Shown here one piece after another: positions 2,357 through 20,183 of a stretch of 64,000 nt of DNA; within the stretch, counting starts at the first letter, position 1; every line of letters begins with the position of its first letter. This DNA comes from Saprospiraceae bacterium (GTDB lineage: Bacteria; Bacteroidota; Bacteroidia; Chitinophagales; Saprospiraceae), in contig JAHDDO010000002.1 in the NCBI GenBank assembly GCA_020629315.1, forward strand, positions 62,001-126,000, in the 5' to 3' direction. The position numbers and the translations under genes are program-made. A model generated the notes under the pieces. That model was not told the origin of the DNA. It did not search any database and worked only from the letters and a program-made list of their open reading frames with translations.

Positions 2357-2384
2357 TAATATAAATAAATTGACTAAACACGAC

Positions 2385-3214: not shown

Positions 3215-5023
3215 TTATTTAGCAATCGTTAAACGCTTACCTACAATCAGATTGTCTCCATATATAGTAATTAGATATTGGCCAGTTCCTAAACTTGAAA
3301 CATCTAGATTTTGCAATTGACTCACATCCACTTTTTGAGATAAGGCTTGTGCCCCTTTCATATCAGATATAACAATATTTACAGTACCCGCAATATCTAA
3401 ATTGCTTACATCAATAGAGATACTATTTTGGGCAGGATTAGGAAATACTGATATACTGGAAGGGTCTATGATTATGTCATCATTAGACAAAGGATCACTA
3501 AAGATGTATTCACCGGTAGATGAGTTAAACGTCACACCATATGTACCGGCCACTGTTTGAATATTCGGTCCGCCATTGGTACCTACACCTGAAGGGAAGG
3601 CTACATCACCCCAGTTTACAGCCCAGTCATTATCCGCTCTGAACTTTACTCCTGTAGCGTCATCTGCTGGATCATAGTCAGTAACGGTAACGCTGGTTAA
3701 TGTCCATAAATTAAAGTCATCTGCATTTTTGTCCATAGGAACATCATTATCCCAATCTGCATTAGGACCAGACATACCGATAAGTCCGACAGTTCCGTAT
3801 TCTACGACTTCTCTAAATTCATAAGCACCGGATAATGAATTAAAGCTTATGATATAATCTCCAGCAGTAACTGGAATATTAGCACCGTCTTGTGTGGCTA
3901 CACCTGCAGGGAAATCACCAGATCCCCAGTTAACATCCCAAGCATCATCCGCTCTAAATTTAGCTTCTCCATCTAATAGTTCTAATCGGATAGACCATTG
4001 GTGAACATCATTCGCATCTTTTTCCATATCCGTGTCTTCTGCCCAATCACCTGGCGTTGCATTACCAATGATACCAACTGAGCCATACTCTACAATTTCT
4101 CTAAACTCATACTCCAGCGTATTTGAATTAAAAGAAACAAAGTAGTCACCCGCTGTTACTTGAATGTTATCTCCACCAGGTACGCCAACACCACTTGGGA
4201 AATCAGTACCTCCCCAGTTGTCAATCCAGTCATCATCCGCTCTGAACTTTACTTCACCATCAGTAAGTGTGATGATTAAAGTCCATAGATTAGCATCATT
4301 AGGATCGTTGACCATATTCGTATCCACATCCCAACCACCTGGCGTCGCATCACCAATAAGACCAATAGTTGCATAAGTCTTATTAGATTCAAATAAATAC
4401 TCACCAGTCATGGTGTCTAATGAAACAAAATAAGGGCCTGCTTCGTCAACGATAATGTTTGGTCCATCTTGCGTAGCAACGCCTTCAGGAAAGCCTTCAC
4501 CGCCCCAGTTTACTGCCCAGTCATCATCTTTTCTAAATTTCACTTCATTGGCTTCTTCGCCAGCTGTCAAATCAAGTTGAACAAAGAATCGATTTGGGTT
4601 TGTTTGATCCTTAAACATGTTAATATCAGAATCCCATCCATTAGCAGTAGCAGATCCAATTATGCCTATGTCAGAATCAACGTCAAAACAATACTCTCCT
4701 GTTTTTACATTTAAGGTAACCGTGTAATCACCGGCAAAAACAGGAATATCTGGGCCATCCTGCTCTCCTAAACCTTTGGGAAAATCGGCACCTCCCCAGT
4801 TAATCATCCATTCGTCATTAGCTCTAAATTTAACGACGCCGTCAAATAGTGTAACGTCTAATGAATAGATACTGTCCATTTCATTAATTAGCGTCATATC
4901 TGTATCAGTTTCCCACCCACCTGGAGTAGCAGATCCCAATAAGCCTACGCTAGTAATTTGCGATACTCCTACGCTTGCAAAAAGGAATAGGGCGCAAAAA
5001 GTTGTAAGTAGATTTTTTATCAT
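3215..5023 (-). CDS. SusE/SusF-like starch-binding surface protein with five modules and a T9SS sorting domain
   Basis: 602 residues. A signal peptide without lipobox (ends ...ASVGVSQ) is followed by five tandem modules of about 95 residues. Each begins like GLIGDATPGGWDVDTDM and carries the signature VKFRADDDW..NWGG..FP.GV and a closing TGEY.F. This is the SusE/SusF outer-membrane starch-binding module of Bacteroidota. The last 80 residues, starting near VFPNPAQNSISI, form a type A T9SS sorting domain. Classical SusE and SusF are lipoproteins; this one should instead be exported by T9SS. It is transcribed divergently from susC. A perfect palindrome lies between them, suggesting joint control. 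Expected role: holding starch or maltodextrins at the cell surface. Confidence 0.88.
   Translation of the reverse strand: MIKNLLTTFCALFLFASVGVSQITSVGLLGSATPGGWETDTDMTLINEMDSIYSLDVTLFDGVVKFRANDEWMINWGGADFPKGLGEQDGPDIPVFAGDYTVTLNVKTGEYCFDVDSDIGIIGSATANGWDSDINMFKDQTNPNRFFVQLDLTAGEEANEVKFRKDDDWAVNWGGEGFPEGVATQDGPNIIVDEAGPYFVSLDTMTGEYLFESNKTYATIGLIGDATPGGWDVDTNMVNDPNDANLWTLIITLTDGEVKFRADDDWIDNWGGTDFPSGVGVPGGDNIQVTAGDYFVSFNSNTLEYEFREIVEYGSVGIIGNATPGDWAEDTDMEKDANDVHQWSIRLELLDGEAKFRADDAWDVNWGSGDFPAGVATQDGANIPVTAGDYIISFNSLSGAYEFREVVEYGTVGLIGMSGPNADWDNDVPMDKNADDFNLWTLTSVTVTDYDPADDATGVKFRADNDWAVNWGDVAFPSGVGTNGGPNIQTVAGTYGVTFNSSTGEYIFSDPLSNDDIIIDPSSISVFPNPAQNSISIDVSNLDIAGTVNIVISDMKGAQALSQKVDVSQLQNLDVSSLGTGQYLITIYGDNLIVGKRLTIAK
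3490..4957 (-). repeat. Five tandem SusE/F-type modules (protein-level repeat)
   Basis: Five consecutive copies of a roughly 95-residue module make up most of the SusE/F-like protein. The copies share the opening G.IG.AT.G.W and the KFR.DD.W..NWG core. The third and fourth copies are the most alike. The fifth is extended by an insertion after LTSVTVTDY. Confidence 0.8.
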
Positions 5024-5054: not shown

Positions 5055-5075
5055 ATTGTGTCATTATGACACAAT
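5055..5075. promoter_or_regulatory. Candidate operator, ATTGTGTC-N5-GACACAAT
   Basis: A perfect inverted repeat with 8-bp arms, ATTGTGTC at 5055-5062 and GACACAAT at 5068-5075, separated by ATTAT. It sits in the divergent promoter region of the SusE/F-like gene (start 5023) and susC (start 5143). The same core, GTGTC-N5-GACAC, recurs at 20169-20183 beside the Nudix regulator gene. I infer that the Nudix regulator binds both sites. Confidence 0.6.
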
Positions 5076-5142
5076 ATATACAAAAAAACTTATTTTTATT
5101 GAGTCTACTCATTTTAATCAATAAAGAGGTAAACCTACCAAA

Positions 5143-8094
5143 ATGACAAATTTTATTTCGTTAGTAAAGCTCAGTGCATATTGTGCGATCCTTCTTATAT
5201 CAGGGCAAATGGAAGCTCAACGTTATATAAAAGGGCAGATAACAGATGAGCAAACAAATGAGCCCATTATTGGAGCCAATGTAATTGAACCTGGGACTAG
5301 GAATGGCACGATCACAGATATTGATGGTGCATTCTCACTGACCGTCTCAGAGAATACGGCATTTATTGAAATAAGCTACATAGGGTATAATGATGTACAA
5401 TTAGACATTAGAGGTCAAGAAAAATTCATGGTTTCCATGACCTCTGGAGAAGTATTGGAAGAAGTAGTCGTTATCGGTTATGGTACTGTAAAGAGAGAAG
5501 ACGCAACTGGCGCTGTCCAAACAGTGACGGCTGCAGACTTCAATAAAGGGGCCTTAACGGGTCCGCAAGAATTATTAGCTGGAAAAGTACCTGGCGTAAA
5601 TATTAATACGGGTGCAGACCCTGGTGGTGGATCGAAAATTAGGATTCGGGGTGAATCTTCATTAAATGCCTCAAATGATCCGCTTATCGTGATTGATGGA
5701 GTGCCATTGGACAACACCCAAATCGCAGGTAATAGAAATCCTCTGGATATTATTAATCCAAATGATATAGAATCGTTTACAGTTTTAAAGGATGCCTCAG
5801 CCACGGCCATATATGGTAATAGAGCGGCCGGTGGTGTTATCCTAATAACTACAAAAAAAGGAAAGGCCGACCAAAAACTATCAGTTGCTTACAACGGTAA
5901 TGTGAGTGTAGGGACCATTACTAACCGAATAGAAGTGCTAGATGCAGATGAGTATAGAGATATCATTAGAGAAATCCATGGTGAAGAATCAGAAGCGTAT
6001 ATGGTTCTTGGAGATGCAAATACGGATTGGCAGGATGAGATTTACCAAAATGCAACGGGTACTGAACACAATTTAAATTTTAGCGGTGGGGTAAAACAAT
6101 TACCGTATCGATTATCGCTAGGCTATATAAATAAGAATGGGATTTTGAAAACAGACAATTATCAGCGGTCTTCTTTAGGAGTCAATCTTAATCCAAGTTT
6201 TTTAGATAATCGATTGCAAGTGAATGTTGGCTTAAAATCTATTTGGTCTAATAATCATTTTGCCGATCGAGGTGCTATAGTTGATGCCTTAAGCTTCGAT
6301 CCCACACAGACTGTTCGTGACCCTAATAGTGCGTACGGCGGATTTACCACTTGGTTAGACGCTTCGGGAAACCCGCAGTTCTTATCGCCCACAAACCCAG
6401 TGGCTAAGCTTGAACTTAAAGATGATGAGTCTACTGTAAACCGATACATTGTTAACGCTAGTGCTGATTATCGTTTTTCTTTCATGCCAGCACTCAGAGC
6501 TAATCTAAATCTAGCACTAGACCAATTAGAGGCAAATGGCAGTGTAACGGAACCCACATTTGCAGCGTTTTCATTTGATCCACAATTTGGTGGAGGTAAA
6601 AACAATACCTATAATGAGCAAAAGAATAATCGATTATTAGAATATTATATGAATTACAAAAAAGGGTTTGGAATTCATGATGTGGATTTGATGGCCGGTT
6701 ATTCATGGCAACGTTTTGCCTACGAAAAAACATTCCGAGATTCAGATGCAGCAGGTTCAGAATCAAAAACAGTAGAGGGCGTAGATAAAAATGAATTGTA
6801 CTTAATTTCCTTGTTTTCTAGATTGAATTATAACCTATTAGATAGATATCTATTTACGTTCAGTTTACGACGAGATGGGACCTCTAGATTTGCCGAAGGT
6901 TCACGATGGGGTCTTTTCCCTGCAGCCGCTCTTGCGGTAAAGATTATTGAAAAAGAGGATGCTCGCTTGAATAGACTGAAGCTACGAACAGGATGGGGGG
7001 TCACTGGCCAAGAAAATCTGGATAAGGATGAAGATTATAATCGCTATGCTTCTCTGCCAAGATACACCTTTGGCTTCTCTACAGCAGCATATCAAGTCGG
7101 TGATGAATTTGTAACAACCTTGCGACCAGAAGGCTATGACTCTGAATTGCGTTGGGAAACGACAACAACATACAATATAGGTCTTGATTTTGGATTGTTT
7201 AATGACCGGCTTTCAGGATATGTGGATCTCTATAGACGAGACACCAAGGATTTGTTAAATAGAATTCCAGTTCCTGCAGGAACAAACCTTACAAACTTCG
7301 TTACTACGAATATTGGAAACATGACAAACAATGGGGTTGAAGTTGCCTTATTTACAAAACCGATTTCCACAAAAAATCTGAATTGGGACTTAGGCTTTAA
7401 TGTTTCCAGAAATGTAAATGAAATAACCAAACTGACAGCTACTGATGATCCTGAATATATTGGAATACTTACAGGTGGAATTGCAGGTGGTGTGGGAAGT
7501 AATATCCAGATTCACAGTGTGGGTTATGCTCCTTTTTCTTTCTACGTAAAAGAACAATTGTATGATGAAGAAGGAAACATTCTAGAAGGGGAGTTCGCAG
7601 ATTTGGATGGTGATGGTATTTCTAATGATAATTATCGGTATAAAAATCCAGCGCCTGAATACGCATATGGTATCACGAGTAGTCTGGGCTATAAAGCACT
7701 TCGCCTATCATTTGCAGGAAGAGCACAAACAGGAAACTATGTTTACAATAATGTTTTGACAAACATTGGCTATTTAAATCGATTAGTTTCATCTCAGAAC
7801 ACATTGTATAATGTCCATAGTGAAGCTGTAGAATTAGATGTATATGATCAAGGTAATCTAACATTCAGCGATCACTTTATCCAAGAAGCTTCCTTCTTTA
7901 GATTGGACCATGTAACTCTTTCTACAGATATTAGTTCCTTGACTAAATTTAATGCTGGATTAAGTTTTACTGTTCAAAACCCTCTGGTTATCACTAGATA
8001 TACCGGTGTAGATCCAGAAGCATCAGATGGTATAGATAATGATACCTATCCACGTGCCCGAACGTATGTTTTAGGATTCAATGCTCAATTTTAA
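5143..8094 (+). CDS. susC: SusC/RagA-type TonB-dependent outer-membrane transporter (maltooligosaccharide uptake)
   Basis: 983 residues. A signal peptide (about 1-26, ending near GQMEA) is followed by a carboxypeptidase-regulatory-like beta-sandwich domain starting IKGQITDEQTNEPIIGANV. Next comes the SusC linker VVVIGYGTVKREDATGAV, then the plug domain with IRGESSLNASNDPLIVIDGV and AIYGNRAAGGVILITTKKG, and a long 22-stranded-barrel region ending in Phe (LGFNAQF). These are the defining parts of the SusC class, which imports oligosaccharides together with a SusD lid, powered by TonB. Alpha-glucan specificity is inferred from the neighbouring SusE/F, GH13 and GH65 genes. susD follows after 20 bp. 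Confidence 0.93.
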   Translation: MTNFISLVKLSAYCAILLISGQMEAQRYIKGQITDEQTNEPIIGANVIEPGTRNGTITDIDGAFSLTVSENTAFIEISYIGYNDVQLDIRGQEKFMVSMTSGEVLEEVVVIGYGTVKREDATGAVQTVTAADFNKGALTGPQELLAGKVPGVNINTGADPGGGSKIRIRGESSLNASNDPLIVIDGVPLDNTQIAGNRNPLDIINPNDIESFTVLKDASATAIYGNRAAGGVILITTKKGKADQKLSVAYNGNVSVGTITNRIEVLDADEYRDIIREIHGEESEAYMVLGDANTDWQDEIYQNATGTEHNLNFSGGVKQLPYRLSLGYINKNGILKTDNYQRSSLGVNLNPSFLDNRLQVNVGLKSIWSNNHFADRGAIVDALSFDPTQTVRDPNSAYGGFTTWLDASGNPQFLSPTNPVAKLELKDDESTVNRYIVNASADYRFSFMPALRANLNLALDQLEANGSVTEPTFAAFSFDPQFGGGKNNTYNEQKNNRLLEYYMNYKKGFGIHDVDLMAGYSWQRFAYEKTFRDSDAAGSESKTVEGVDKNELYLISLFSRLNYNLLDRYLFTFSLRRDGTSRFAEGSRWGLFPAAALAVKIIEKEDARLNRLKLRTGWGVTGQENLDKDEDYNRYASLPRYTFGFSTAAYQVGDEFVTTLRPEGYDSELRWETTTTYNIGLDFGLFNDRLSGYVDLYRRDTKDLLNRIPVPAGTNLTNFVTTNIGNMTNNGVEVALFTKPISTKNLNWDLGFNVSRNVNEITKLTATDDPEYIGILTGGIAGGVGSNIQIHSVGYAPFSFYVKEQLYDEEGNILEGEFADLDGDGISNDNYRYKNPAPEYAYGITSSLGYKALRLSFAGRAQTGNYVYNNVLTNIGYLNRLVSSQNTLYNVHSEAVELDVYDQGNLTFSDHFIQEASFFRLDHVTLSTDISSLTKFNAGLSFTVQNPLVITRYTGVDPEASDGIDNDTYPRARTYVLGFNAQF

Positions 8095-8114
8095 ACGCCT
8101 AGAAAAGATTAAAA

Positions 8115-10298
8115 ATGAAGAATAGATTTCAATATATATTTTGTGCTTTGTTCGTAAGCTTGGTTTTGACTTCTTGCTTTAATGATCTAAATACTATTCC
8201 AGCGGATGAAGATGTAATTACATCTGAACAAGTGTATGATAATCCAGAAGCCTACAAACAAGTGTTGGCAAAGTTATATGCGGGATTGGCTCTAACTGGT
8301 CAACAAGGACCTGCGGGGAAAGGAGATATTGAAGGTATAGATGAAGGTTTTGGTCAGTACCTACGGATGTTATTTTATCACCAGGAGTTTACTACTGATG
8401 AAGCCGTTGTGGGGTGGAATGATCAGACGATCAAAGATTTTCACGAACAAGATTGGGCGGATAATGATGGTTTTGTGTTCGCCATGTATAGCCGGATTTA
8501 TTATCAGATTCCATTAGCCAATGAATTTCTGAGAGAAACCACAGACGCTAAATTAAATGAGAGAGGTGTAGATGATGCCCTTAAAACAGAAATTCAAGGT
8601 TTTAGAGCAGAAGCTAGATTTCTGAGAGCCCTTAGTTATTGGCATGCCTTAGACCTATTTAGAAACGTACCGTTTGTTACTGAAGATGATCCAGTAGGTA
8701 GCTTCTTCCCTGAGCAAATAAGTGCGGTTGATTTATTTGCATATCTAGAAGCAGAATTACTAGATATAGAAAATAAAATAGCCGATGTACGAACAAACGA
8801 ATATGGTCGTGCAGATCAAGGGGCGGTGTGGGCATTGTTGAGTAAGTTATATTTAAATGCCGAAGTATATACTGGCCAAGCGAGATATGAAGATTGCTTG
8901 ACTTATTGCGATAAGATCTTATCTGCAGGTTATGCTTTGGAGGAAAATTACCAGAACCTATTCTTAGCGGATAATCACTTATCTGATGAGATCATTTTCC
9001 CTATAGCTTTTGATGGTATTAATACTAGAACCTGGGGTGGCATGACCTTTATCATAAGGGCAGCTATTGGAGGCAGTATGACAGCCGCAGATTCTGGTGT
9101 CAAAGATGGATGGGGAGGTACGAGAACCACTCGACAACTAGTCGATAAATTTGGAGAGATAGGTGGGGTTTTAGTAGAGCCCAATGCAGGTTCTACGGCC
9201 CAGTATCCAAAGTTATATGTCCCTGCATCATATAATGATTTCGATTTTAGTGATCTCGAGAATGCATTATCATCGGTAGAAAATGATAATGTATTCCAAG
9301 GGTATAAATACTTTCCAAGTGGCGGAGGGAGCTTCTTATTGAGCCGAATTCCTGATGCATCTGCACCTTATTTTGGAGACAATGGCGGAGATGGTAGCTT
9401 GGATCAGTTCGGTGATGAAATCCAGGTAGCGGAAGAAGGTTTGTATTACTTTGAAGTGGACTTAAATGACAATACATACACCTTAGAAAAGCAAGAATGG
9501 GGCGTTATTGGAGATGCAACGGAGGGTAGCTGGGATAGTGATACAGATATGGAATGGAGCGATGAGCTAAATGCGCTACGGGTGATTGTTAATGGAAATG
9601 GAGGTGAATTTAAGTTTAGGGCTAATGATGCTTGGGACATAAATCTCGGAGATACCAATGCAGATGCCATTCTGGATTTTGACGGGGATAATATCTCCTT
9701 GCCAGCTGGTGAGTTTGAGATCGTTCTTTACATTGGAAAGCCAGATTACACATATAGTATTACCCTAAATAGCTTTGACACTCGACCTTTATTTTATTCA
9801 GATGGTCAGAACTTGGATATTGATGATATTACACAATTCAATCAAGGCTATGCAGTGGTTAAGTTCAAGAATGTGGATTCTAACGGTAATCCAGGTAGTG
9901 ACTCTGATTTCCCAGATACAGACTTTCCTGTTTTTAGATTAGCGGATGTGCACCTTATGGCTGCTGAAGCAGCACTGCGAACTGGGGCAAGCAGTCAATC
10001 ATTAGATTATTTAAATCCAGTCAGAAATCGGGCTTTTAAGAGTTCCGCAGGTCATATCTCAGAAAGTGAATTAAGCTTGGATTTCATCTTAGATGAACGA
10101 GCTCGAGAATTGTATTGGGAGTGTCACCGTAGAACGGATCTTGTTCGTTTTGGTCAATTTTCGGATGGTGAATATTTATGGCAGTGGAAAGGTGGATTGT
10201 TCTTAGGTACTCAGGTGCCTGACTTTAGAAACGTATTTCCTATACCATCTGCCGACTTGGCAGCTAACCCTAATTTAATACAAAACGAAGGCTATTAA
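8115..10298 (+). CDS. susD: SusD-like glycan-binding lipoprotein with an inserted SusE/F-type module
   Basis: 727 residues, clearly longer than usual SusD (about 500-600). The lipobox LTSC places the lipidated Cys at residue 21. The N-terminal helical TPR part (EIQGFRAEARFLRALSYW) and the C-terminal signature (FPVFRLADVHLMAAEAAL, then LDERARELYWECHRR) are typical RagB/SusD features. Between them, about residues 385-550, lies extra beta-rich sequence. Its second half (from Trp462: WGVIGDATEGSWDSDTDM ... GEFKFRANDAWDINLG) is an unmistakable copy of the module that forms the SusE/F-like protein upstream. The first half, YKYFPSGGGSFLLSRI..., looks like a decayed or partial second copy. SusD normally caps SusC and captures glycan; the insert probably adds a starch-binding site. 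Confidence 0.92.
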   Translation: MKNRFQYIFCALFVSLVLTSCFNDLNTIPADEDVITSEQVYDNPEAYKQVLAKLYAGLALTGQQGPAGKGDIEGIDEGFGQYLRMLFYHQEFTTDEAVVGWNDQTIKDFHEQDWADNDGFVFAMYSRIYYQIPLANEFLRETTDAKLNERGVDDALKTEIQGFRAEARFLRALSYWHALDLFRNVPFVTEDDPVGSFFPEQISAVDLFAYLEAELLDIENKIADVRTNEYGRADQGAVWALLSKLYLNAEVYTGQARYEDCLTYCDKILSAGYALEENYQNLFLADNHLSDEIIFPIAFDGINTRTWGGMTFIIRAAIGGSMTAADSGVKDGWGGTRTTRQLVDKFGEIGGVLVEPNAGSTAQYPKLYVPASYNDFDFSDLENALSSVENDNVFQGYKYFPSGGGSFLLSRIPDASAPYFGDNGGDGSLDQFGDEIQVAEEGLYYFEVDLNDNTYTLEKQEWGVIGDATEGSWDSDTDMEWSDELNALRVIVNGNGGEFKFRANDAWDINLGDTNADAILDFDGDNISLPAGEFEIVLYIGKPDYTYSITLNSFDTRPLFYSDGQNLDIDDITQFNQGYAVVKFKNVDSNGNPGSDSDFPDTDFPVFRLADVHLMAAEAALRTGASSQSLDYLNPVRNRAFKSSAGHISESELSLDFILDERARELYWECHRRTDLVRFGQFSDGEYLWQWKGGLFLGTQVPDFRNVFPIPSADLAANPNLIQNEGY

Positions 10299-10307
10299 TC
10301 AATACCT

Positions 10308-13300
10308 ATGAACACAGTAAGAACAATTCTATTATTTATATTATTAGCGGTAAGCCATTTCCATCAAGCTCAGCAATGGTCAGTGCTGGGGGCAGAAATT
10401 GGCTTTGATATTATGGGCTTGAACAGAGGAGTAGCTATCGCTGATTACGATAATGACGGATGGGAAGATATCTATTTTAGTGTAAAGGATGGCCCCAACC
10501 TTTTATTCAAGAACCTAGGTAACTTCCAGTTTATTGAAGTAGCCGAAGAATTGGGTTTAGCTAACGCAGGCAATACCTTGGCGAGCGTATGGATTGACAT
10601 CGAAAATGATGGAGATCTTGATCTATTTTGTGGCAATCAATTTCAAAAGAGTCGACTGTATATTCAAGAAAATGGTTCCTTTTATGACCGAACTAACGAA
10701 TTTGGTATTGATGTCAATGCGAATATTCAATCTGTAAATGCTATCGATTATAATAACGATGGATTATTGGATATTTATTTGGCAGCCTTTGAAAGAGAGA
10801 ACTACTTTTTACAAAATGAAGGGACTCACTTTACAGATGTTATTGCAGACCTAGGTATTAGTAGCACACTACAATCTATGGGTGCTATATTTTTTGACGC
10901 AGATCAAGATGGAGATGCTGATCTATATCAGACCCATGATGGAAATAAAGGCAATGAGTTTTTTAGAAATGAAGGCGATGGAACCTTTAGAAAGAAAACC
11001 GCAAGCACAGGTACTGGATATAAAGGGCAAGGTATGGGAGTGGATGTTGGGGATATAAATGGAGATGGGGCCTTGGATATTTACTTCACAAATCTATTTC
11101 ACAATATATTATACCTAAGAAAAGGGGATGAATATGAATTGAGCTTCGATCCACTCTTGAATGATGATGGAATGGGTTGGGGCACATTCATTTTTGATGC
11201 AGATAATGACAGTGATGAAGATATCTTTATTGCTAACGATTCGCATTTTCAGGTCGATGGTATAAATTATGCAAACCAACTCCTACTAAATCAAGGAGAC
11301 ATGTCTTTGACTACATTGAATCAAACTGCAGTGCAAACCACAGATGCTTCCTATGGTGCTGCCACAGCTGATCTAAATAAAGATGGTCTTTTGGATATAG
11401 TGATAGCCAATTCTGTTACGACAGGTAATCAGATTTTAGTTAATGAAAGTGATCCAGCTAATTATATATCTGTAGCCTTAGAAGGGGTGAACTCTAATCG
11501 TCAAGGCATCGGAGCTACCGTCTATGCTTATTTGGAAGATAAGACCCTAGTTAAGAATGTTTCAGCAGGTAGTTCGTATGCCTCACAAAGCAGTTCCATT
11601 CTACACTTTGGCTTGGGGGATATAAGTGTGGTAGATAGTATTGTAGTCCAATGGCCTTCAGGAATACGGCAAACCATTTTGGGTGTGGATGCAAATCAAC
11701 GTTTGGAAATCATTGAACAAGAAACGGTGAATTTTAACGGACCTTTGGTCTGGACGGACCCACCGTTTCCTACGCAATTAGATGATATAACACTCTACTT
11801 TGACGCCCGAGAAGGCAATGGAGCCTTGGCTGGATTTGAAGGTGATGTATATGCTCATACGGGTGTAATTACCTCAGAATCGACGGCTCCGAATGACTGG
11901 AAACATGTGCAAGGTGTATGGGGAACGCCAGATGCTACTGTTCTCATGGAAAGAGTAGAAGATGATGTTTATAGCTTAGAATATAATATAACGGATTACT
12001 ATGGAATTAACGAAGGAGAGATTGTGGAGCAATTGGCCTTTGTATTCAGGAACAGTAATGGAGGGATCGTTGGACGTGATACGGATGGATCAGATATCTT
12101 TCATGATGTATATGAATTTACTGAAGGATTTTTAGTAAATCTGATTTCACCAGCCAGTGAAAATACAGTGATCTATCAAGGTGAAGATCTTTTGATTCAA
12201 TTGCAATCCAATTTGCCCGGAACCCTAGAAATCTATGATAATGAATCCTTAATTTTTACAGGTGAAGGGACTGATTTTGAATATGCGCAAGTGGGAGAGT
12301 CTTTGGGTGAGCATCAACTTCGATTTGTAATTTTTGACGAAATAGACACTGCAGAGCTTACTAGTAGATACTTTGTCATAGATGCAAATGAAGATGTAGT
12401 GGATTTGCCTAGTGATGTGCACGAAGGCATCAATTATACTCAAGATGGAAATCTGTTGTTTCGCTTGACCGCTCCTCTAAAAGAACATGTTTTTATACTA
12501 TGCCCTTGGAATGAGTATAAGGTTGATGTTGACTTTAGAATGCAGAAAACGACAGATGGTGATAACTTTTTATTAGAGCTTCCTACTTCTTATTTTGCGG
12601 ATGGGAATAACACCTATCAATATCTTATCGATGGTGTAATAAAAGTAGCTGATCCTTTTTCGTCTGTAGTTTTGGATCCGTGGAATGACGCTGGAGTGCC
12701 TGCTGATGTAATGGACGAACTACCAGATTACCCCGAAGGTCTGACAACAGGGATAGTATCCGTTGTGGATACAGAACCACTTGTTTTTGATTGGCAAAGC
12801 AATGACTTTGAAAAGCCCGCCAATGATAATCTCATCATTTATGAAATCTTGATGCGTGATTTTGTTGAGGACCGCAATTACAAGTCACTTTTAGATAGTT
12901 TAACTTACTTAAAAGGACTTGGAGTCAATGCCATTCAATTAATGCCTATTCAGGAGTTTGAAGGAAATCAATCCTGGGGGTATAATCCAAGTTTTCATAT
13001 GGCAGTAGATAAATATTATGGAAGCAGGGATCAGTTGAAAAGACTAATTGATGAGGCGCATGGCTTAGGCATAGCTGTCATCTTGGATGTCGTCTTTAAT
13101 CATGCTTTTTCGCAATCTCCTTTGTGTCAAATGTACTGGGATCCGACCTTATTCAGACCTACACCAGAGAGCCCTTACTTAAATGAAGAAGCTAGACATC
13201 CTTTTAATGTAGGGTATGACTTTAACCATGAAAGCCCTTACACTAAAGACTGGGTGAAACGAGTGCTTACGCATTGGATCGAAGAATATAGATTCGATGG

Positions 13301-14492
13301 ATTTAGATTTGATCTTTCTAAAGGGTTTACCCAAAAATTTTCTGGGTCTAATATCGAAGCCTGGAGCCAATATGATTTTACCAGGGTAGGTATTCTAGAT
13401 GATTATGCATCCCATATATGGAGTTTAGATCCAGAATCATATGTAATCATGGAGCATTTTGCAGTGAATGAAGAAGAAAGTGATATGTCTGATTTAGGGA
13501 TGATGATCTGGGGTAATATGACCCACCAGTTTGCAGAAGCAGCGATGGGATATGGTTCTAATCTTGGCTGGGCAGATTATACAGAGAGGGGCTGGGACGA
13601 CCCTAATTTGATCGCTTACATGGAGTCACACGATGAAGAAAGAATGGGGTATAAACTGATTACATATGGAAATGAAAACCAAGAGTATAGCACGAAAGAT
13701 ATAGCTACAGGCGCAGAACGTCTCGTCGCTGCATCCGTTATTTATATGTCTATTCCGGGGCCTAAGATGCTTTGGCAGTTTGGCGAGTTAGTCTATGATT
13801 ACTCAATTAATCGTTGCGTTAATGGTTCCATAAATCCAGACTGTCGATTAGATCCAAAACCAGTACGCTGGGATTATTTTGAAGACGAACGTAGAAAATT
13901 GGCTTATGATAAATTAGCGGCCCTTCATGAGTTGCGTCAAAATTATCCCGTGTTTAGGACCAGAGATTTTGAATATAAAGATGTAAACGCATTTGTCAAG
14001 TCGGTCAGTCTTACTGGGGAAGAGATGGATGTATTCGCCTTGGCCAACTTCCGAATCACACCTTCTGATGCCAGCGTGACCTTTCCTTCAGACGGAATTT
14101 GGTACGACTATTTTACAGGAGATTCGATAAGCTTGGATCAAAGTAATGTTACCCTAAGCTTAGATGTAGGCGAATACCGCTTATATACTAGTGAAAAGCT
14201 GGCACCTCCAAATGGATTCTTTACGACCGTTCATGAAAAAAATGAGCTACCATTTGTAGTATTTCCTAACCCGAGTCATCGAGGCCAAAATACTTTCATC
14301 CAATTAGAAAGTGATCCAAGATCTGATTGGAAGATCGAAGTTTGGAATGCGGATGGAAAACGATCTATGATGCAATCTGGAACATCGAAGGACATTGAAC
14401 TACAAACAAAAGATCTCGGACCTGGCATATACATGCTTATGATATTTTCTGATGATCAGATAGGGTATAAAAAGTTGATCATACATGAGTAG
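10308..14492 (+). CDS. Secreted multidomain alpha-amylase: FG-GAP/ASPIC repeats, starch-binding-like domains, GH13, T9SS tail
   Basis: 1394 residues. A signal peptide (to ...HQAQQ) is followed by FG-GAP/VCBS-type repeats with Ca-binding-like DYDNDGW, DYNNDGL and DADQDGDAD loops (about 25-385) and an ASPIC/UnbV domain (about 390-450). A domain seen on Bacteroidota alpha-amylases follows (about 481-604, DDITLYFDAREGNG...DIFHDVYE), then an Ig-like stretch and a CBM48-like domain (about 700-790). The GH13 barrel begins near residue 840. Its conserved regions are present: DVVFNH 927-932, nucleophile Asp1002 in FRFDLSKGF, acid/base Glu1049 in VIMEHF, and Asp1109 in SHDEER. A type A T9SS domain closes the protein. 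It should act outside the cell on starch. The gene starts 9 bp after susD and overlaps the next gene by 8 bp. Confidence 0.9.
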   Translation: MNTVRTILLFILLAVSHFHQAQQWSVLGAEIGFDIMGLNRGVAIADYDNDGWEDIYFSVKDGPNLLFKNLGNFQFIEVAEELGLANAGNTLASVWIDIENDGDLDLFCGNQFQKSRLYIQENGSFYDRTNEFGIDVNANIQSVNAIDYNNDGLLDIYLAAFERENYFLQNEGTHFTDVIADLGISSTLQSMGAIFFDADQDGDADLYQTHDGNKGNEFFRNEGDGTFRKKTASTGTGYKGQGMGVDVGDINGDGALDIYFTNLFHNILYLRKGDEYELSFDPLLNDDGMGWGTFIFDADNDSDEDIFIANDSHFQVDGINYANQLLLNQGDMSLTTLNQTAVQTTDASYGAATADLNKDGLLDIVIANSVTTGNQILVNESDPANYISVALEGVNSNRQGIGATVYAYLEDKTLVKNVSAGSSYASQSSSILHFGLGDISVVDSIVVQWPSGIRQTILGVDANQRLEIIEQETVNFNGPLVWTDPPFPTQLDDITLYFDAREGNGALAGFEGDVYAHTGVITSESTAPNDWKHVQGVWGTPDATVLMERVEDDVYSLEYNITDYYGINEGEIVEQLAFVFRNSNGGIVGRDTDGSDIFHDVYEFTEGFLVNLISPASENTVIYQGEDLLIQLQSNLPGTLEIYDNESLIFTGEGTDFEYAQVGESLGEHQLRFVIFDEIDTAELTSRYFVIDANEDVVDLPSDVHEGINYTQDGNLLFRLTAPLKEHVFILCPWNEYKVDVDFRMQKTTDGDNFLLELPTSYFADGNNTYQYLIDGVIKVADPFSSVVLDPWNDAGVPADVMDELPDYPEGLTTGIVSVVDTEPLVFDWQSNDFEKPANDNLIIYEILMRDFVEDRNYKSLLDSLTYLKGLGVNAIQLMPIQEFEGNQSWGYNPSFHMAVDKYYGSRDQLKRLIDEAHGLGIAVILDVVFNHAFSQSPLCQMYWDPTLFRPTPESPYLNEEARHPFNVGYDFNHESPYTKDWVKRVLTHWIEEYRFDGFRFDLSKGFTQKFSGSNIEAWSQYDFTRVGILDDYASHIWSLDPESYVIMEHFAVNEEESDMSDLGMMIWGNMTHQFAEAAMGYGSNLGWADYTERGWDDPNLIAYMESHDEERMGYKLITYGNENQEYSTKDIATGAERLVAASVIYMSIPGPKMLWQFGELVYDYSINRCVNGSINPDCRLDPKPVRWDYFEDERRKLAYDKLAALHELRQNYPVFRTRDFEYKDVNAFVKSVSLTGEEMDVFALANFRITPSDASVTFPSDGIWYDYFTGDSISLDQSNVTLSLDVGEYRLYTSEKLAPPNGFFTTVHEKNELPFVVFPNPSHRGQNTFIQLESDPRSDWKIEVWNADGKRSMMQSGTSKDIELQTKDLGPGIYMLMIFSDDQIGYKKLIIHE

Positions 14493-16731
14493 ATTAGTTC
14501 TCTTCTTATTTTTTTTGATGGTCCAATGTTATCTTGGTCACGCTCAATATGATCACCCACAAGACGGCCTTCTTTTTGACCGGACTGAGGTGCCTCAAAT
14601 CGAGATTATTCTTGCCCCAGAGGACTTTCAAGCTATATTGGATGATCCATCAAGTAATGAAGAATATCCAGCTAACTTTATTTTCTCTAGCTCAAGTCTA
14701 AACGATACGATGGAGAATATTGGATTTAGATTACGAGGTAACACCTCTAGATTTTCGCAAAAAAAATCATTCAAAATTTCATTCAACACCTTCGAAGCTG
14801 GACGAAAATTTGAAGGGGTTGAAAAACTAAATTTGAATGGGGAACACAATGATCCATCTATTACTCGATCATTGTTATGCTGGGATCTATGTAAAGAGTT
14901 AGATATTATTGCGGCCCGCTCTAACCATGTTCGATTGTACATTAATGGTGAATACCGCGGACTTTATATTAATGTAGAGCACATTGATGAGGAGTTTGTT
15001 CAAAAGCGTTTTTCTCATAGTGAAGGCAATCTATTTAAATGTTTGTATCCAGCCGACTTGCATTATAAAGGACCTGATCCCAATGCATATAAGGAAGAAC
15101 AAAATGGAAGGCGCACGTATGACCTCAAGACCAATAAGGGAGGTGATGACTATTCAGCATTGGCACACTTTATCGATGTGCTAAATAATTATGAAGGAGA
15201 ATCATTTAGATGTGAAATTGAAGAAGTCTTTGATGTCGATACATATTTACGTGCAATCGTAATGGATATATTGACATCCAATTGGGATGGTCCTATCTTT
15301 TTGAAGAATAACTTTTATTTATATCATGATCCGTATAAAGATCGGTTCACCTATATTTCATATGACCTTGATAATACCTTTGGTATAGATTGGTTTGGTA
15401 TAGATTGGGCCAATTCCAATATCTATACCTGGGCAGGATTGAGTGGCGAGTACAGACCTATTTTTGAAAAAATAATGTTGGTTCCGGAGTTCAAAAATCG
15501 GTTTAGTTATTATATGTCGGAAGCGATTCAAACTGTGTTTACAGCGGAAGCATTGCACCCTAAAATGGAAGCGATTAAAGACCGCATCGAGGCCTATAGA
15601 GTGAATGACATCTTTGCAGGCTTGGATTATGGTTGGAGCTATACTGATTTCTTAGATAGTTATAATATGTCTTTGGGTGATCATGTGAAACTAGGATTGA
15701 AAAATTATGTGGAGAGGCGAGTGGCCAGTATTGAAGATCAATTAAACTTGGTGGATATTTATCCAGTAATCCGCTATCACGATTCGCAGTGGAGTCCAGA
15801 AAATATTGATTTTTCTATCCATTACTTTGATGATGTAGAAGTCAGTGAAGCGGTTTTTCATTATAGTGTAGATGGTAATGAATGGATGAGTGAAACTATG
15901 GATATAGATGGGGATAAAGCTACATTCCTCTACCCAATAGATACGGGTGCTTCCATGGAATATTATTTTTCTGTTGAGGATAACATTGGACAAAATCAAC
16001 GATATCCTCTTTGTGAATCACTACAAATAAATATCGTCTCTGAAGAATTGCCAGATATTGTGATTAATGAAGTGATGACAGATAATTCAGATTTTAAAAA
16101 GGATGAAAATGGAGAATATGATGATTGGATTGAAATCTATAACAATTCCAATACAGTAGTTCCGATAAGTCAATTTTATCTATCGGATGATCCCACAGTG
16201 CCAAACAAATGGTCGATGCCAAATACCATTCTGAACCCAAATGAATATATGATTATCTGGGCCGATGGTGAGCCTCACCAAGGAAGCAGACATGCTAACT
16301 TTAAACTAAAGGCAGGCGGTGAATTCTTAGGACTTTTTTCATCTGAAGAAAATCACTTTTTGCCTATAGATGTAGTAGATATACCTGAATTAGAAAGTAA
16401 TACCTCGTATGCCAGGCAGCCCAATGGAGATGGTTTCTTTTTTGAAACGGATGAAGTCACTTTTGACTTCAATAACGATGAATTTTCGAGTACAGATGAA
16501 CCATCCATTTACTCGGCTATTTTTTATCCTTTGCCTAGTGATGGCCTATTTAATTTGAAAGGCTCTGCTACGGGATTAGAGATACTATCCATTAGCGATT
16601 TGCTAGGTAGAACTATAGATTTTAATTGGAATGGTAAGCAACTAAAATTAAACGATGCTCCAAAGGGAAACTACTTCTGCCAAGTGAAAAATAAGAACAC
16701 ATATCAAACCATAAAATTAGTAGTGCATTGA
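14485..16731 (+). CDS. CotH-like protein with lamin-tail domain and T9SS tail
   Basis: 748 residues with a signal peptide ending near YLGHAQ. A CotH kinase-like domain (about 60-420) shows the strand LRGNTSRFSQKKSFKISF, RLYINGEYRGLYINVEHID and the acidic metal-binding motif SYDLDNTFG. A lamin-tail-like domain follows (about 525-640, IVINEVMTDNSDF ... DDWIEIYNNS), and a T9SS-like C-terminal domain with SISDLLGRTIDF. CotH proteins are atypical kinases that phosphorylate secreted proteins in Bacillus spore coats; the role of exported Bacteroidota versions is unknown. The ATG overlaps the stop of the amylase gene (ATGAGTAG), and its own stop overlaps the next start (TTGA), so it is firmly part of the starch operon. 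Whether it modifies operon proteins or serves as an adhesion scaffold cannot be told from sequence. Confidence 0.85.
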   Translation: MSRLVLFLFFLMVQCYLGHAQYDHPQDGLLFDRTEVPQIEIILAPEDFQAILDDPSSNEEYPANFIFSSSSLNDTMENIGFRLRGNTSRFSQKKSFKISFNTFEAGRKFEGVEKLNLNGEHNDPSITRSLLCWDLCKELDIIAARSNHVRLYINGEYRGLYINVEHIDEEFVQKRFSHSEGNLFKCLYPADLHYKGPDPNAYKEEQNGRRTYDLKTNKGGDDYSALAHFIDVLNNYEGESFRCEIEEVFDVDTYLRAIVMDILTSNWDGPIFLKNNFYLYHDPYKDRFTYISYDLDNTFGIDWFGIDWANSNIYTWAGLSGEYRPIFEKIMLVPEFKNRFSYYMSEAIQTVFTAEALHPKMEAIKDRIEAYRVNDIFAGLDYGWSYTDFLDSYNMSLGDHVKLGLKNYVERRVASIEDQLNLVDIYPVIRYHDSQWSPENIDFSIHYFDDVEVSEAVFHYSVDGNEWMSETMDIDGDKATFLYPIDTGASMEYYFSVEDNIGQNQRYPLCESLQINIVSEELPDIVINEVMTDNSDFKKDENGEYDDWIEIYNNSNTVVPISQFYLSDDPTVPNKWSMPNTILNPNEYMIIWADGEPHQGSRHANFKLKAGGEFLGLFSSEENHFLPIDVVDIPELESNTSYARQPNGDGFFFETDEVTFDFNNDEFSSTDEPSIYSAIFYPLPSDGLFNLKGSATGLEILSISDLLGRTIDFNWNGKQLKLNDAPKGNYFCQVKNKNTYQTIKLVVH

Positions 16732-18578
16732 AATACTTGATTAGCTTTTTAACGATTATACTCTGCGGCACGTTATCGTACACACAGCAGATAGACAGAA
16801 TTGAGCCGCCCCATTGGTATGCTGGAATGGTAAATCCCAATGTCCAACTATTAATTTATGGGGAGGATATAAAAGAGCTAAACGTCAGTTGTGATCATGA
16901 TTTGATTACGATCAAGCAAGTCCATCAAGCGGAAAGTGACAATTATCTGTTTGTTGATCTAGAAATGCAAGATGGGTTTTCAGCTTCAGAAGTCCAATTT
17001 ACATTTAAAGACAAGCGCAAAACTGTAGCAAGTATAGACTATCAATTTTTTCAAAAGGAATTGATAGAATCAGGTTCTCGAACTATAGAGCCTTCTGACG
17101 TAATATATTTAATTACACCTGATCGCTTTGTAAATGGAAACGTGGATAATGATGAAGTGGAAGGATTAAAAGAAGGCTTGCTCCGTTCTGCAGAATATGG
17201 CAGACATGGAGGAGATCTAGAAGGGATATCTCAAAGTCTCCCTTATTTAAAGGATCTTGGATTTACTGCAGTATGGCTTAACCCTGTACTCATCAATGAT
17301 CAACCGGCTTGGTCTTACCATGGGTATGCCACCACAGACTATTATTTAGTAGATCCTAGATTTGGCTCGAACGAAAGCTATGTGGACTTAGTAGAGGAGG
17401 CCAATGCAATGGGTATGGGTATGATCATGGATATTATTGTAAACCATTGTGGAGATCATCATTGGTGGATGGAAGATCCACCCTTTGCGGATTGGATAAA
17501 CCGACAGGATAAACCATTTATTCATACGAATCACCGGAAAACAACGCTCTTGGATCCGTATGTATCAGAGTATGATCGTGAGATCATGACGGAAGGTTGG
17601 TTTGTGAAGGAGATGCCTGATTTAAATCAGAATAATCCTTTCATGGCTACCTACTTGATACAAAATTCTATTTGGTGGGTAGCGTATGCTAAGTTGAGTG
17701 GTATTCGACAAGATACCTATTCGTATCCATTTAGATCATTTATGACAGATTGGACATGCGCTCTACAAACCGAGTATCCTGATTTGTACATTGTTGGTGA
17801 AGAGTGGATAGATGAGCCTGCAGTAATATCGTATTGGCAGCAAGGTAAGGTCAATACAGATGGGTATACCTCGTGCTTGCCTGGGCTCATGGACTTTCCA
17901 TTGTGTTTTGCTATGCACAAAGCGTTTACGGAAGAAGAAGGATGGGGGACTGGCCTTATAAAACTATATGAAAAATTAGCGATGGATTTTCTCTATGCCG
18001 ACCCCAAAAAGCTAGTTATTTTCCCAGATAATCATGATATGAGTAGAATCTATACGCAGGTAGATGAGAATTATGACCACTTTAAAATGGCCATGACTTT
18101 CCTGTTGACTACAAGAGGGATCCCACAGATTTATTATGGTACAGAAATATTAATGGCAAACCCAGGCACCGAAAGCCATGGCATTATTCGGTCTGATTTT
18201 CCAGGAGGTTGGATAGGTGATGAAACCAATGGTTTTACAGGAAAAGGCATGGACTCTTTGGCTTTGGATGCCCAAGACTTTACCAAACGAATATTGAATT
18301 GGAGAAAGGAAAACACGACTATTCACGATGGAGCCTTAGTGCATTTTGAGCCTCAAAACGGGTTTTATGTCTACTTTCGATATGACACTGAAAGCACGAT
18401 AATGGTAGTATTAAATAAAAATGAAAAACCATCAGAACTTCCTTTAGAAAGATTTAGAGAGCGTATTGGTGGATCTAAGACATTTAAAAATGTACTCACA
18501 GGTGACAATATAGAGAACGCAAATCAGACTCTGACGTTTAACGAAATGGGAGCCTACATCCTGGAAGTACTACCGTAA
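16728..18578 (+). CDS. susA: Neopullulanase/cyclomaltodextrinase-like GH13 enzyme (SusA-like)
   Basis: 616 residues with a signal peptide (MKYLISFLTIILCGTLSYTQQ), so probably periplasmic. An N-terminal cyclomaltodextrinase-type beta domain (about 22-110, starting IDRIEPPHWYAGMVNP) precedes the GH13 barrel. Conserved regions: DIIVNH from Asp235, nucleophile Asp329 in GIRQDTYSY, acid/base Glu358 in IVGEEW, and Asp437 in FPDNHDMSR. A C-terminal beta domain ends the protein. The layout matches SusA of the Bacteroides starch system, which cuts imported maltooligosaccharides. The start is TTG, in a TTGA overlap with the CotH stop; no ATG precedes the signal peptide. The assignment to the family is firm; exact bond specificity is not known. 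Confidence 0.9.
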   Translation: MKYLISFLTIILCGTLSYTQQIDRIEPPHWYAGMVNPNVQLLIYGEDIKELNVSCDHDLITIKQVHQAESDNYLFVDLEMQDGFSASEVQFTFKDKRKTVASIDYQFFQKELIESGSRTIEPSDVIYLITPDRFVNGNVDNDEVEGLKEGLLRSAEYGRHGGDLEGISQSLPYLKDLGFTAVWLNPVLINDQPAWSYHGYATTDYYLVDPRFGSNESYVDLVEEANAMGMGMIMDIIVNHCGDHHWWMEDPPFADWINRQDKPFIHTNHRKTTLLDPYVSEYDREIMTEGWFVKEMPDLNQNNPFMATYLIQNSIWWVAYAKLSGIRQDTYSYPFRSFMTDWTCALQTEYPDLYIVGEEWIDEPAVISYWQQGKVNTDGYTSCLPGLMDFPLCFAMHKAFTEEEGWGTGLIKLYEKLAMDFLYADPKKLVIFPDNHDMSRIYTQVDENYDHFKMAMTFLLTTRGIPQIYYGTEILMANPGTESHGIIRSDFPGGWIGDETNGFTGKGMDSLALDAQDFTKRILNWRKENTTIHDGALVHFEPQNGFYVYFRYDTESTIMVVLNKNEKPSELPLERFRERIGGSKTFKNVLTGDNIENANQTLTFNEMGAYILEVLP

Positions 18579-18589
18579 TGTACTTGTGA

Positions 18590-19369
18590 TTATTTAAATG
18601 AAGTAAACGCTATATCTCCTTCATCGATTTGTAAGTTGCCTTTTTCGTAATATTGGAAAGTTGCGTTGTGTTTAGCACCCAACGGTGTAACGTAAACTTT
18701 GTAAAAGTCAATCCCTTGTGCAAAAGAATACACGTGATTTCCACCACTTCCTTCGTAATCTAATTGACCATTTTCCACAATAATAATAGGGGGTTCTTTT
18801 TTGCTCTGCATTTTTTGCCAAACAACCAATCTATATCCATTGCCTATTTGATCCACCCTAAGACTGTAGGTCAAGGTGTGCATTTCGATTCGTTGATTAT
18901 CAAAAGTTGATATACTGGGATGTAATTGATTATTGAATGATTTTTCTAGTTTGACCCTAATTTCTTTTTCTGCTGTAGATTCATAATTTATTGAAATGAT
19001 GCGGCCATCAAAATCTATCCAAAGATCTCCTGTTCCTAACATAATACCCTGACTACCCACCGCTGACCAATCTGATGATGGATCAGAACCTAGGATTTTT
19101 TCAATTAAGAAAGCATCAAATATTTCTGGATACCTAGTGACAAACTGTCCTTCATCGTTTATTTCAGGAATAGGACTTTTCCTTTTTAATGGATATCTTA
19201 CATTCTTGGCTATTTGTTCGACATCACCCGATTCAATACTCTTTTGAAAATGTTGAACCACTGGTGTGTGAATACTTTCATCAGAAGTAATAATTGTTTG
19301 AGGAACTGTCTTATTTGAGTTACAGGCCACAAGAAAGAGAAAGAATGGAAGTAGTTTTGCGTTATACAT
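18590..19369 (-). CDS. Lipoprotein of unknown function beside the Nudix regulator
   Basis: 259 residues that I do not recognise. A signal peptide with lipobox LVAC (Cys16) makes it a lipoprotein. The region around residues 40-80 (QHFQKSIESGDVEQIAKNVRYPL) resembles the short helical start of SnoaL/NTF2-like or DUF-type periplasmic proteins, and a beta-rich half follows. It begins 29 bp after the stop of the Nudix regulator gene and on the same strand, so the two are probably co-transcribed. It converges on the susA-like gene, 11 bp apart. A link to glucan use is possible by position only. Confidence 0.7.
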   Translation of the reverse strand: MYNAKLLPFFLFLVACNSNKTVPQTIITSDESIHTPVVQHFQKSIESGDVEQIAKNVRYPLKRKSPIPEINDEGQFVTRYPEIFDAFLIEKILGSDPSSDWSAVGSQGIMLGTGDLWIDFDGRIISINYESTAEKEIRVKLEKSFNNQLHPSISTFDNQRIEMHTLTYSLRVDQIGNGYRLVVWQKMQSKKEPPIIIVENGQLDYEGSGGNHVYSFAQGIDFYKVYVTPLGAKHNATFQYYEKGNLQIDEGDIAFTSFK

Positions 19370-19398
19370 ATTACTGGTAATCGGAATAATGATGGATA

Positions 19399-20133
19399 CT
19401 ATATCTGGAAGTTAAACTCCTTTTTACCACTGACCGCCTTAAATTTTTTGTGATCAAAACTGTAAAGTTTGGCGGGTCTATGTGCATTTCCTTCCGTAAA
19501 CTCATCTAAGTCAAGCAAGATATCGATGGACCTAAGCTTTCTTCTAAAATTTCGTTTGTCAAAAGAAATACCTAGAATGGCTTCGTATAAGGATTGTAGT
19601 TCTTGCAACGTAAATTTCTTGGGTAAAAGTTCAAACCCAATTGGACGAGTTCTAACATTGCGTTGCAATAGACTGAACGAGGCATCTAAGATCTCTTTAT
19701 GATCAAAGGCCATCTTTTGTAAACTATGAATATCCATCCATTTAAGACCTTTGTCTTTAAAGTCTGTCAAGGTGTATTCTTCAATCTTGATCAATGAATA
19801 GTAAGCCACCGTAAGTACTCTACCTAATGGGTGCCTGCCTGGATCAGCAAAAGCGTGAACTTGTTGAATATGTACCCCTTTTAATCCGGTTACTGTTTCT
19901 AAGACTCGCTGCGCAGCGCCATCTAGATTTTCGTCCTTCTTTACGAGGTCTCCAATCAAAGAACGTTTACCCAAATGAGGTGGCATATCAGACTCAATCG
20001 TAAGTATTTTGATCGACTCATCATCATAACCAAAAATGACACAATCTACAGATATAGCAGCTTTGGACTCTTCATTTAATTGATCGAGCCAAATATTGAT
20101 GTTTTTCGCTTGTTTTACGGCTTCAGTACCCAT
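19399..20133 (-). CDS. Nudix-type transcriptional regulator (NrtR-like)
   Basis: 244 residues. The N-terminal 150 residues have a Nudix fold (start near AISVDCVIFGYDDESIKILT), but the Nudix box is degenerate. Where active enzymes have REUxEExGU, this protein reads RVLETVTGL, so hydrolysis is unlikely and ligand sensing more likely. The C-terminal 85 residues (LLPKKFTLQELQSLYEAILG, DKRNFRRKL, HRPAKLYSF) form the winged-helix DNA-binding domain of the NrtR family. In Bacteroidota, members of this family are known to control sugar catabolism (AraR of Bacteroides thetaiotaomicron is one). It is divergent from the maltose transporter gene. A perfect palindrome lies between them and recurs in front of susC. 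I infer it is the regulator of the whole glucan island and of itself. Confidence 0.88.
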   Translation of the reverse strand: MGTEAVKQAKNINIWLDQLNEESKAAISVDCVIFGYDDESIKILTIESDMPPHLGKRSLIGDLVKKDENLDGAAQRVLETVTGLKGVHIQQVHAFADPGRHPLGRVLTVAYYSLIKIEEYTLTDFKDKGLKWMDIHSLQKMAFDHKEILDASFSLLQRNVRTRPIGFELLPKKFTLQELQSLYEAILGISFDKRNFRRKLRSIDILLDLDEFTEGNAHRPAKLYSFDHKKFKAVSGKKEFNFQI

Positions 20134-20168
20134 AACTAATATGCTATAAATCTAATAAAAAAATCTTT

Positions 20169-20183
20169 GTGTCCTCGTGACAC
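20169..20183. promoter_or_regulatory. Candidate operator, GTGTC-N5-GACAC
   Basis: Perfect inverted repeat GTGTC (20169-20173), CTCGT, GACAC (20179-20183). It lies between the divergent Nudix regulator (start 20133) and MFS transporter (start 20225). It shares core and spacing with the site at 5055-5075. The left flank, TTTGTGTC, also resembles the ATTGTGTC arm of that site. Confidence 0.55.

Follow-up and report, generated by a model that had tools for sequence, protein, structure and literature searches.

Which factor controls a starch-utilization island in Saprospiraceae is the question raised by the locus described here. The window, i.e., the whole stretch of 64,000 nucleotides analysed (contig JAHDDO010000002.1 of a Saprospiraceae bacterium, positions 62,001 to 126,000), includes a starch island bounded by a dapF-like gene (2370-3164) and sucC (24689-25891), in which two palindromes of the form GTGTC-N5-GACAC occupy intergenic spaces where divergent genes begin and one gene encodes a Nudix-type regulator. 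The palindromes are very probably bound by this regulator, a presumed sugar sensor encoded within the same island. We hold with good confidence that it would act as an NrtR-family repressor, responsive to sugar and belonging to a starch/maltose branch, and would bind GTGT-N7-ACAC at both divergent promoter regions. Comparative evidence supports this interpretation, in which binding, the sign of control and the ligand are predicted from sequence. The sites, the regulator gene and the genes that flank the sites are as follows.

5055 to 5075, no strand: predicted operator 1, a perfect 21-bp palindrome, ATTGTGTC-ATTAT-GACACAAT, with its core at 5058-5072
20169 to 20183, no strand: predicted operator 2, GTGTCCTCGTGACAC, i.e., GTGTC-CTCGT-GACAC
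19399 to 20133, minus strand: NrtR/AraR-type regulator with an inactive-looking Nudix domain and a winged helix (NrtR_WHD 5e-27, AraR_C 1.5e-14)
3215 to 5023, minus strand: SusE/F-like secreted starch-binding protein with a type IX secretion system (T9SS) tail (Pfam SusF_SusE 1.1e-28, Por_Secre_tail), divergent from susC
5143 to 8094, plus strand: SusC-type TonB-dependent porin (TIGR04056, 716 bits)
20225 to 21706, plus strand: major facilitator superfamily (MFS) sugar carrier, probably a maltose carrier (MFS_1 1.9e-27; GPH_sucrose-like match under cut-off)

Operator 1 lies between the SusE/F-like gene and susC, and operator 2 between the Nudix regulator and carrier genes; the carrier frame as called from GTG 20177 overlaps operator 2, its start being very likely ATG 20225. 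The first-pass annotation had reported inverted repeats with identical core and spacing at these two places and no third copy in the window, and both statements were confirmed: the exact pattern occurs twice, where 0.04 would be expected, and none of 100 shuffles reached two. When up to two mismatches were allowed, 13 matches were found as against 12.35 expected, so that only the exact form is informative. The highest profile score in the window (25.9) was that of operator 1, itself part of the training set. Throughout the genome (G000; 3.95 Mb, 94% complete) exact GTGTC-N5-GACAC was found solely at the two island sites, and the copies before unrelated genes that would have spoken against a dedicated operator did not appear. 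Since the reversed control pattern likewise occurs in two places, the count is ordinary and the evidence lies in location, the probability that two random genome places lie no more than 15.1 kb apart being about 0.008. The extended form TTGTGTC-N5-GACACAA with at most one mismatch marked only operators 1 and 2 in this genome, and with two mismatches gave 10 places versus 11 for the control, i.e., noise. That both palindromes are products of chance, or RNA hairpins, draws on the equal frequency of the reversed pattern; it is hardly credible given the position of the sites, their recurrence at the same promoters in other genera and the first rank of GTGT-N7 in a scan over all arms and spacers, both described below. 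An Rfam scan of window positions 1-30000 at gathering thresholds gave no matches.

The same layout was noted in other genomes. In G309, which belongs to another genus, one operator lies between the regulator gene and divergent genes for beta-phosphoglucomutase, a GH65 enzyme, a GH13 enzyme and an MFS carrier, and a second, 29 kb away, lies between divergent SusE/F and SusC-SusD genes; the 15-base core of the latter is identical to that of window site 1, spacer included. This 15-base core also precedes a SusC-like gene (28% identity) in G087. In a congener (G001), a single intergenic operator was found between regulator and carrier genes, with the detected starch genes running outward on both strands, together with a further core inside a reading frame. 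The exact core was present in four of the six divergent SusE/F-SusC spacers observed and a one-mismatch form in the other two. The long pattern was found at seven places in five of six selected regulator-bearing genomes, never in reversed form, and in none of five regulator-free genomes, which agrees with the expectation that the extended form is tied to the presence of the regulator; the former genomes had been chosen for a core seen beside the regulator (G001, G054, G309, G087) or at the carrier locus (G081, G035), and the latter for lacking the regulator. Another congener (G002), without the regulator, is also without the carrier, a single case of little weight. Before a GH13 gene of G281 (L229:11866-11886), a palindrome ATATTGTC-N5-GACAATAA was noted in which the first G of the arm is replaced by T; this is perhaps a drifted operator.

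For a wider comparison, 38 regulator loci from genomes of the order, 80 named loci and the window locus (119 in all, 116 after three duplicates were dropped) were labelled as starch-context if tblastn with the island genes placed starch genes within 9 kb (31 loci with such genes, 85 without). The query alignment comprised the window regulator and 12 loci chosen for gene context after their sites had been seen; 11 of these 12 were starch-context by the later label (the exception being L086), so that the sample is enriched for such loci. Several named loci are contigs of metagenome-assembled genomes, the labels of which may be wrong. GTGT-N7-ACAC was present somewhere in the locus for 30 of 31 starch-context regulators as opposed to 31 of 85 others, the background in the 31 starch loci being a mean of 6.8 over all 4-mers with two G/C, and the reversed TGTG-N7-CACA occurring in four. 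When 256 arms and 16 spacers were ranked in the 400 bp upstream of starch-context regulators, GTGT-N7 came first (15 of 31; next 8), as did GTGTC-N5 among 5-mer arms (6 of 31; next 5); this ranking presupposes no motif and rests on the starch-enriched sample. The strict GTGTC form was noted in 7 of 31 starch loci versus 1 of 85 others, in that one case 8.5 kb from the regulator. The palindrome therefore accompanies related regulators at starch loci, a co-occurrence that had been proposed as a check of the binding assignment. Tandem operators, 30-48 bp apart, were seen in four Chitinophagaceae starch loci (L113, L124, L141 and L164, the second operator of the last lying in a called frame) and recall the tandem sites of AraR.

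In a tree of these regulators, the product of a quick search and with several long branches, the 26 starch-context regulators from outside the Sphingobacteriaceae all fell in one 65-row clade (Shimodaira-Hasegawa-like approximate likelihood ratio test, 97) that excludes AraR of Bacteroides thetaiotaomicron (BtAraR) and a neighbouring 27-row clade; 39 rows of the 65-row clade had no adjacent starch genes within the visible stretch, and L148, without a readable frame, was left out of the tree and counted among the 85 others. The remaining five of the 31 starch-context regulators (L158, L160, L168, L176 and L179) lie in a separate Sphingobacteriaceae group and were labelled starch solely through GH13 matches of 24-29% identity, which are lenient calls. 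A single clade of all starch-context regulators was not supported, as the label changes 15 times on the tree; the mean for shuffled labels was 27.5 (0 of 500 as low). Relatives with 43-46% identity were also noted on contigs labelled Verrucomicrobiota, Planctomycetota, Ignavibacteria and Myxococcota (L157, L165, L166, L167, L181 and L182), labels that would reflect either transfer or misbinned contigs.

The window regulator is the sole NrtR_WHD protein detected in its genome. Its family membership was indicated by Pfam matches (NUDIX 1.8e-5, with the NrtR_WHD and AraR_C matches given above) and by an AlphaFold 2 model (mean predicted local distance difference test score 91.4), the nearest solved fold to which is BtAraR (5bs6, Z 25.5), also the nearest solved relative by sequence (1.4e-50); the best named relatives are from Saprospiraceae. 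The degraded Nudix box and winged-helix tail of the earlier description were borne out by these domain matches and by the signature residues. With the REUxEE signature of PMC4666351 as reference, the signature glycine is Asp62 and the glutamates are Val77, Thr80 and Val81. According to the available passages of the same source, AraR binds 21-bp semipalindromes, the single-site oligonucleotide and the crystal DNA both carry GTGT-N7-ACAC, and the protein-DNA contacts define GTGT. The window palindromes have this semipalindromic core, and the BtAraR DNA-contact residues Asp178, Lys179, Arg180, Asn181, Arg183 and Arg205 are retained in the window protein, while two base-contacting residues are altered (Lys184 to Arg and Lys204 to His). 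Within the 65-member clade, Asp178, Arg180, Asn181 and Arg183 are invariant, and Arg205 is kept in 64 of 65 rows. The published family core is GTGT-N7-ACAC, and the fifth base (C) is lineage-specific. For starch-context regulators of the clade, the fifth half-site base is C in 18 of 24 cases with Arg184 and in 2 of 50 with Lys184, and L083, which has Lys184 inside the Saprospiraceae group, has A at the fifth base in all four half-sites. Residue 184 (Arg or Lys) thus appears to track the fifth operator base, partly through shared descent.

These findings bear on the proposal that another transcription factor, of the LacI or SusR type for example, uses the palindromes and that the Nudix gene is a mere neighbour. 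The genome does encode one LacI-type protein, and the Bacteroides starch system runs on SusR (PMC3878776, available passages). The LacI gene, however, is on another contig, the core equals AraR operators and the contact residues are conserved, and the association of residue 184 with the fifth base and the absence of the long pattern from five regulator-free genomes are likewise at odds with a different factor. No other regulator family was recognised among the island open reading frames scanned, SusR homologues not having been searched for in the genome, and both Pfam and fold assign the window regulator to NrtR/AraR rather than to the SusR family. On these grounds neither a LacI nor a SusR reading was retained, a factor other than the Nudix protein being very improbable.

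The sign of control was approached through the position of the operators relative to putative -7-type boxes, for which the consensus is TAnnTTTG (PMC7366714, available passages). Boxes of the form TAnnTTT[GA] were sought 28-35 bp after the operator start, and two were found in the window.

5091 to 5098, plus strand: putative -7-type box of the susC promoter, TATTTTTA, 33 bp after the operator start
20147 to 20154, minus strand: putative -7-type box of the regulator promoter, TAGATTTA, 29 bp after the operator start

Of 26 promoter orientations in the Saprospiraceae clade, 11 had such a box at this spacing, whereas 500 shuffles gave a mean of 1.2 and a maximum of 5. With this spacing the operator would cover the -33 region, and this coverage together with the precedent of BtAraR, which binds DNA as the apo-protein and is released by L-arabinose (PMC4666351), favours a repressor released by sugar. 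The same position would also fit activation from about -40, so that the regulator could bind the palindromes as a sugar-requiring class-II activator with its operator centred near -38; this is improbable in view of the BtAraR precedent and of the fact that the regulator shares the promoter region it would need to switch on.

Under repression, a dimer of the regulator would bind GTGT-N7-ACAC (here GTGTC-N5-GACAC) in the SusE/F-SusC and NrtR-MFS spacers, with the operator starting about 30 bp upstream of the -7-type box and lying over the -33 region, and would block the divergent promoters. Upon entry of maltodextrins, a cytoplasmic product, most likely maltose but otherwise glucose or a sugar phosphate, would bind the inactive Nudix domain and the DNA-binding domains would shift out of register as in AraR. 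Uptake (SusE/F, SusC and SusD), GH13 cleavage, MFS import, GH65 phosphorolysis, beta-phosphoglucomutase and the regulator itself would then be derepressed together.

Several observations weigh against this interpretation. GTGT-N7 is also frequent upstream of other-context regulators (15 of the 82 scanned, third after two T-runs; three other loci had less than 150 bp upstream), which makes the core a family trait and not a starch-specific one, and a site is missing from one of the starch-context loci (L093). The association of residue 184 with the fifth base is confounded by phylogeny, the Arg and Lys groups being mostly two families, and L067, L074 and L076 have Arg184 yet T or A as the fifth base. 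In the Chitinophagaceae clade the -7-type box pattern is weak, with 2 of 27 orientations showing it, and no such box was found on the SusE/F and carrier sides, i.e., in two of the four window promoter orientations. Where the regulator is encoded elsewhere in the genome, 11 of 15 carrier loci lack an exact site, although two of these have imperfect palindromes and four (G100, G103, G391 and G380) have a site beside the regulator instead; exact sites were noted at the carrier locus in the other four (G081, G285, G415 and G035). Four regulator-free genomes with the carrier had no site at the carrier locus, a difference (4 of 15 versus 0 of 4) based on too few loci for significance. A profile of starch sites, which were exact cores by choice so that the arms are invariant by construction, also left most distant carrier loci without good sites.

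The ligand was considered from the pocket residues. In AraR, Arg34, Arg86 and His131 bind L-arabinose, and Arg34 bonds O4. Arg86 and His131 are kept in the window protein, as they are throughout the 65-member clade, the neighbouring clade, the Sphingobacteriaceae rows, AraR and Shewanella oneidensis NrtR (SoNrtR), whereas Arg34 is replaced by Ser48. At this position the clade has Ser in 43 rows, Cys in 21 and Asn in one; all 27 rows of the neighbouring clade and all seven Sphingobacteriaceae rows have Arg there, as do AraR and SoNrtR. Loss of Arg34 would leave room for an O4-linked second glucose, which makes maltose the favoured ligand of the window regulator; combined with the Asp that replaces the former signature glycine, it would open the pocket for alpha-1,4-linked glucose. 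No arabinose genes were recognised among the scanned reading frames, in which starch/maltose genes were found instead.

A phosphorylated effector (beta-glucose 1-phosphate or glucose 6-phosphate), or an NrtR of the type that senses adenosine diphosphate ribose (ADP-ribose) in nicotinamide adenine dinucleotide (NAD) metabolism, is the less likely but still appreciable alternative. Position 67, which contacts phosphate in SoNrtR (Lys76; PMC4666351), carries a basic residue (Arg or Lys) in 55 of the 65 members of the clade, a count that tells against certainty about maltose, and the predicted GH65 and beta-phosphoglucomutase reactions would yield beta-glucose 1-phosphate and glucose 6-phosphate. 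In the window protein itself position 67 is Val81, and SoNrtR Asn43, Lys76 and Arg98 correspond to Met50, Val81 and Leu103; nor were NAD genes recognised among the island reading frames scanned. The first-pass annotation had left the choice between a sugar and a nucleotide ligand. Since the compared ADP-ribose contacts are lost, the nucleotide part of that suggestion is unlikely for the window protein, and the sugar part is favoured. The broader proposal, that the Chitinophagales NrtR branch (65 tree members) consists of starch/maltose repressors in which, instead of SusR, a dead Nudix domain acts as the direct maltose sensor, has in our judgement slightly less than an even chance.

Seven Pedobacter and Mucilaginibacter regulators with Arg34 (L158, L160, L162, L168, L172, L176 and L179; at 10001) were noted near phosphofructokinase and glyceraldehyde-3-phosphate dehydrogenase genes, with GH31 in four of the seven loci; in each of them GTGT-N7-ACAC precedes the regulator by 71-115 bp, without exception among the seven. 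They possibly govern a glycolysis-linked sugar regulon.

The other genes of the island, for which enzyme specificities are predictions, are the following.

8115 to 10298, plus strand: SusD-type lipoprotein, 727 amino acids (SusD_RagB; NF033071 under its cut-off)
10308 to 14492, plus strand: secreted 1394-amino-acid protein with FG-GAP/ASPIC-UnbV repeats, a GH13 amylase domain and a T9SS tail (domain scan)
14485 to 16731, plus strand: CotH-kinase/lamin-tail/T9SS protein (domain scan)
16728 to 18578, plus strand: GH13 cyclomaltodextrinase/neopullulanase-like enzyme (Cyc-maltodext_N, Cyc-maltodext_C, Alpha-amylase)
18590 to 19369, minus strand: 259-amino-acid protein without a recognised family; its gene follows that of the regulator, in the same orientation, after 29 bp
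21713 to 22378, plus strand: beta-phosphoglucomutase (TIGR01990, 225 bits; cut-off 189.4)
22378 to 24672, plus strand: GH65 phosphorylase-type enzyme, probably a maltose phosphorylase (PRK13807, 1140.8 bits; Glyco_hydro_65m)

The SusD-type protein has a weak SusF_SusE stretch at residues 387-474 (3.4e-5, under the Pfam cut-off) between SusD parts and looks like SusD with an inserted starch-binding module. The CotH-kinase gene, inside the starch operon, overlaps both adjoining genes by a few bases. The 259-amino-acid protein matched nothing in Pfam or NCBIfam, and a search of the other loci gave no homologue of it.

Within the open-access PMC literature searched, no Nudix/NrtR regulator linked to starch or maltose came to light, RegPrecise and most subscription journals being outside this search. 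Two sources that mention both Nudix and starch were set aside, as the available passages of PMC7765497 concern a nudix hydrolase beside arabinose genes and those of PMC10434189 list BT0791 in an iron table, neither passage describing a starch-linked regulator. For starch loci of Saprospiraceae and Chitinophagaceae, the predictions made here propose a control circuit open to experimental test. They would also add alpha-glucans to the ligands predicted for Nudix-type regulators, so far ADP-ribose/NAD, arabinose and xylose, and they single out one pocket residue and one DNA-contact residue whose exchange could probe specificity.

Among known systems, the closest likeness is to AraR (BT0354) of B. 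thetaiotaomicron, with which the window regulator shares its fold, 38% identity, the operator core, the main DNA-contact residues, a degraded Nudix box and linkage of the regulator to the genes of its sugar. It differs in having starch/maltose genes nearby, in its separate branch of the tree and in its pocket, where Arg34, Phe36, Gly48 and Phe49 of AraR correspond to Ser48, Met50, Asp62 and Leu63. XylR (BT0791) of Bacteroides is a sugar regulator of the same family and phylum (PMC3878776, PMC4666351), but its sugar is xylose. S. oneidensis NrtR, of NAD metabolism, also combines a Nudix domain and a winged helix (Z 21.1), but its compared ADP-ribose contacts are lost here, its DNA-contact residues differ and no NAD genes were recognised nearby. 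SusR of Bacteroides controls SusCDEF-type starch uptake, as the window regulator is predicted to do, and binds maltose (PMC3878776), but is a membrane protein with a periplasmic sensor and belongs to an unrelated family. The operator class is therefore already known from AraR, and the novelty appears to lie in the starch regulon and in the changed ligand pocket. The island and the relatives that repeat its arrangement probably represent a starch branch of the NrtR family, a family hitherto associated with arabinose, xylose and NAD. Such a branch would be functionally new within an established type of regulator and would not be a new kind of system.

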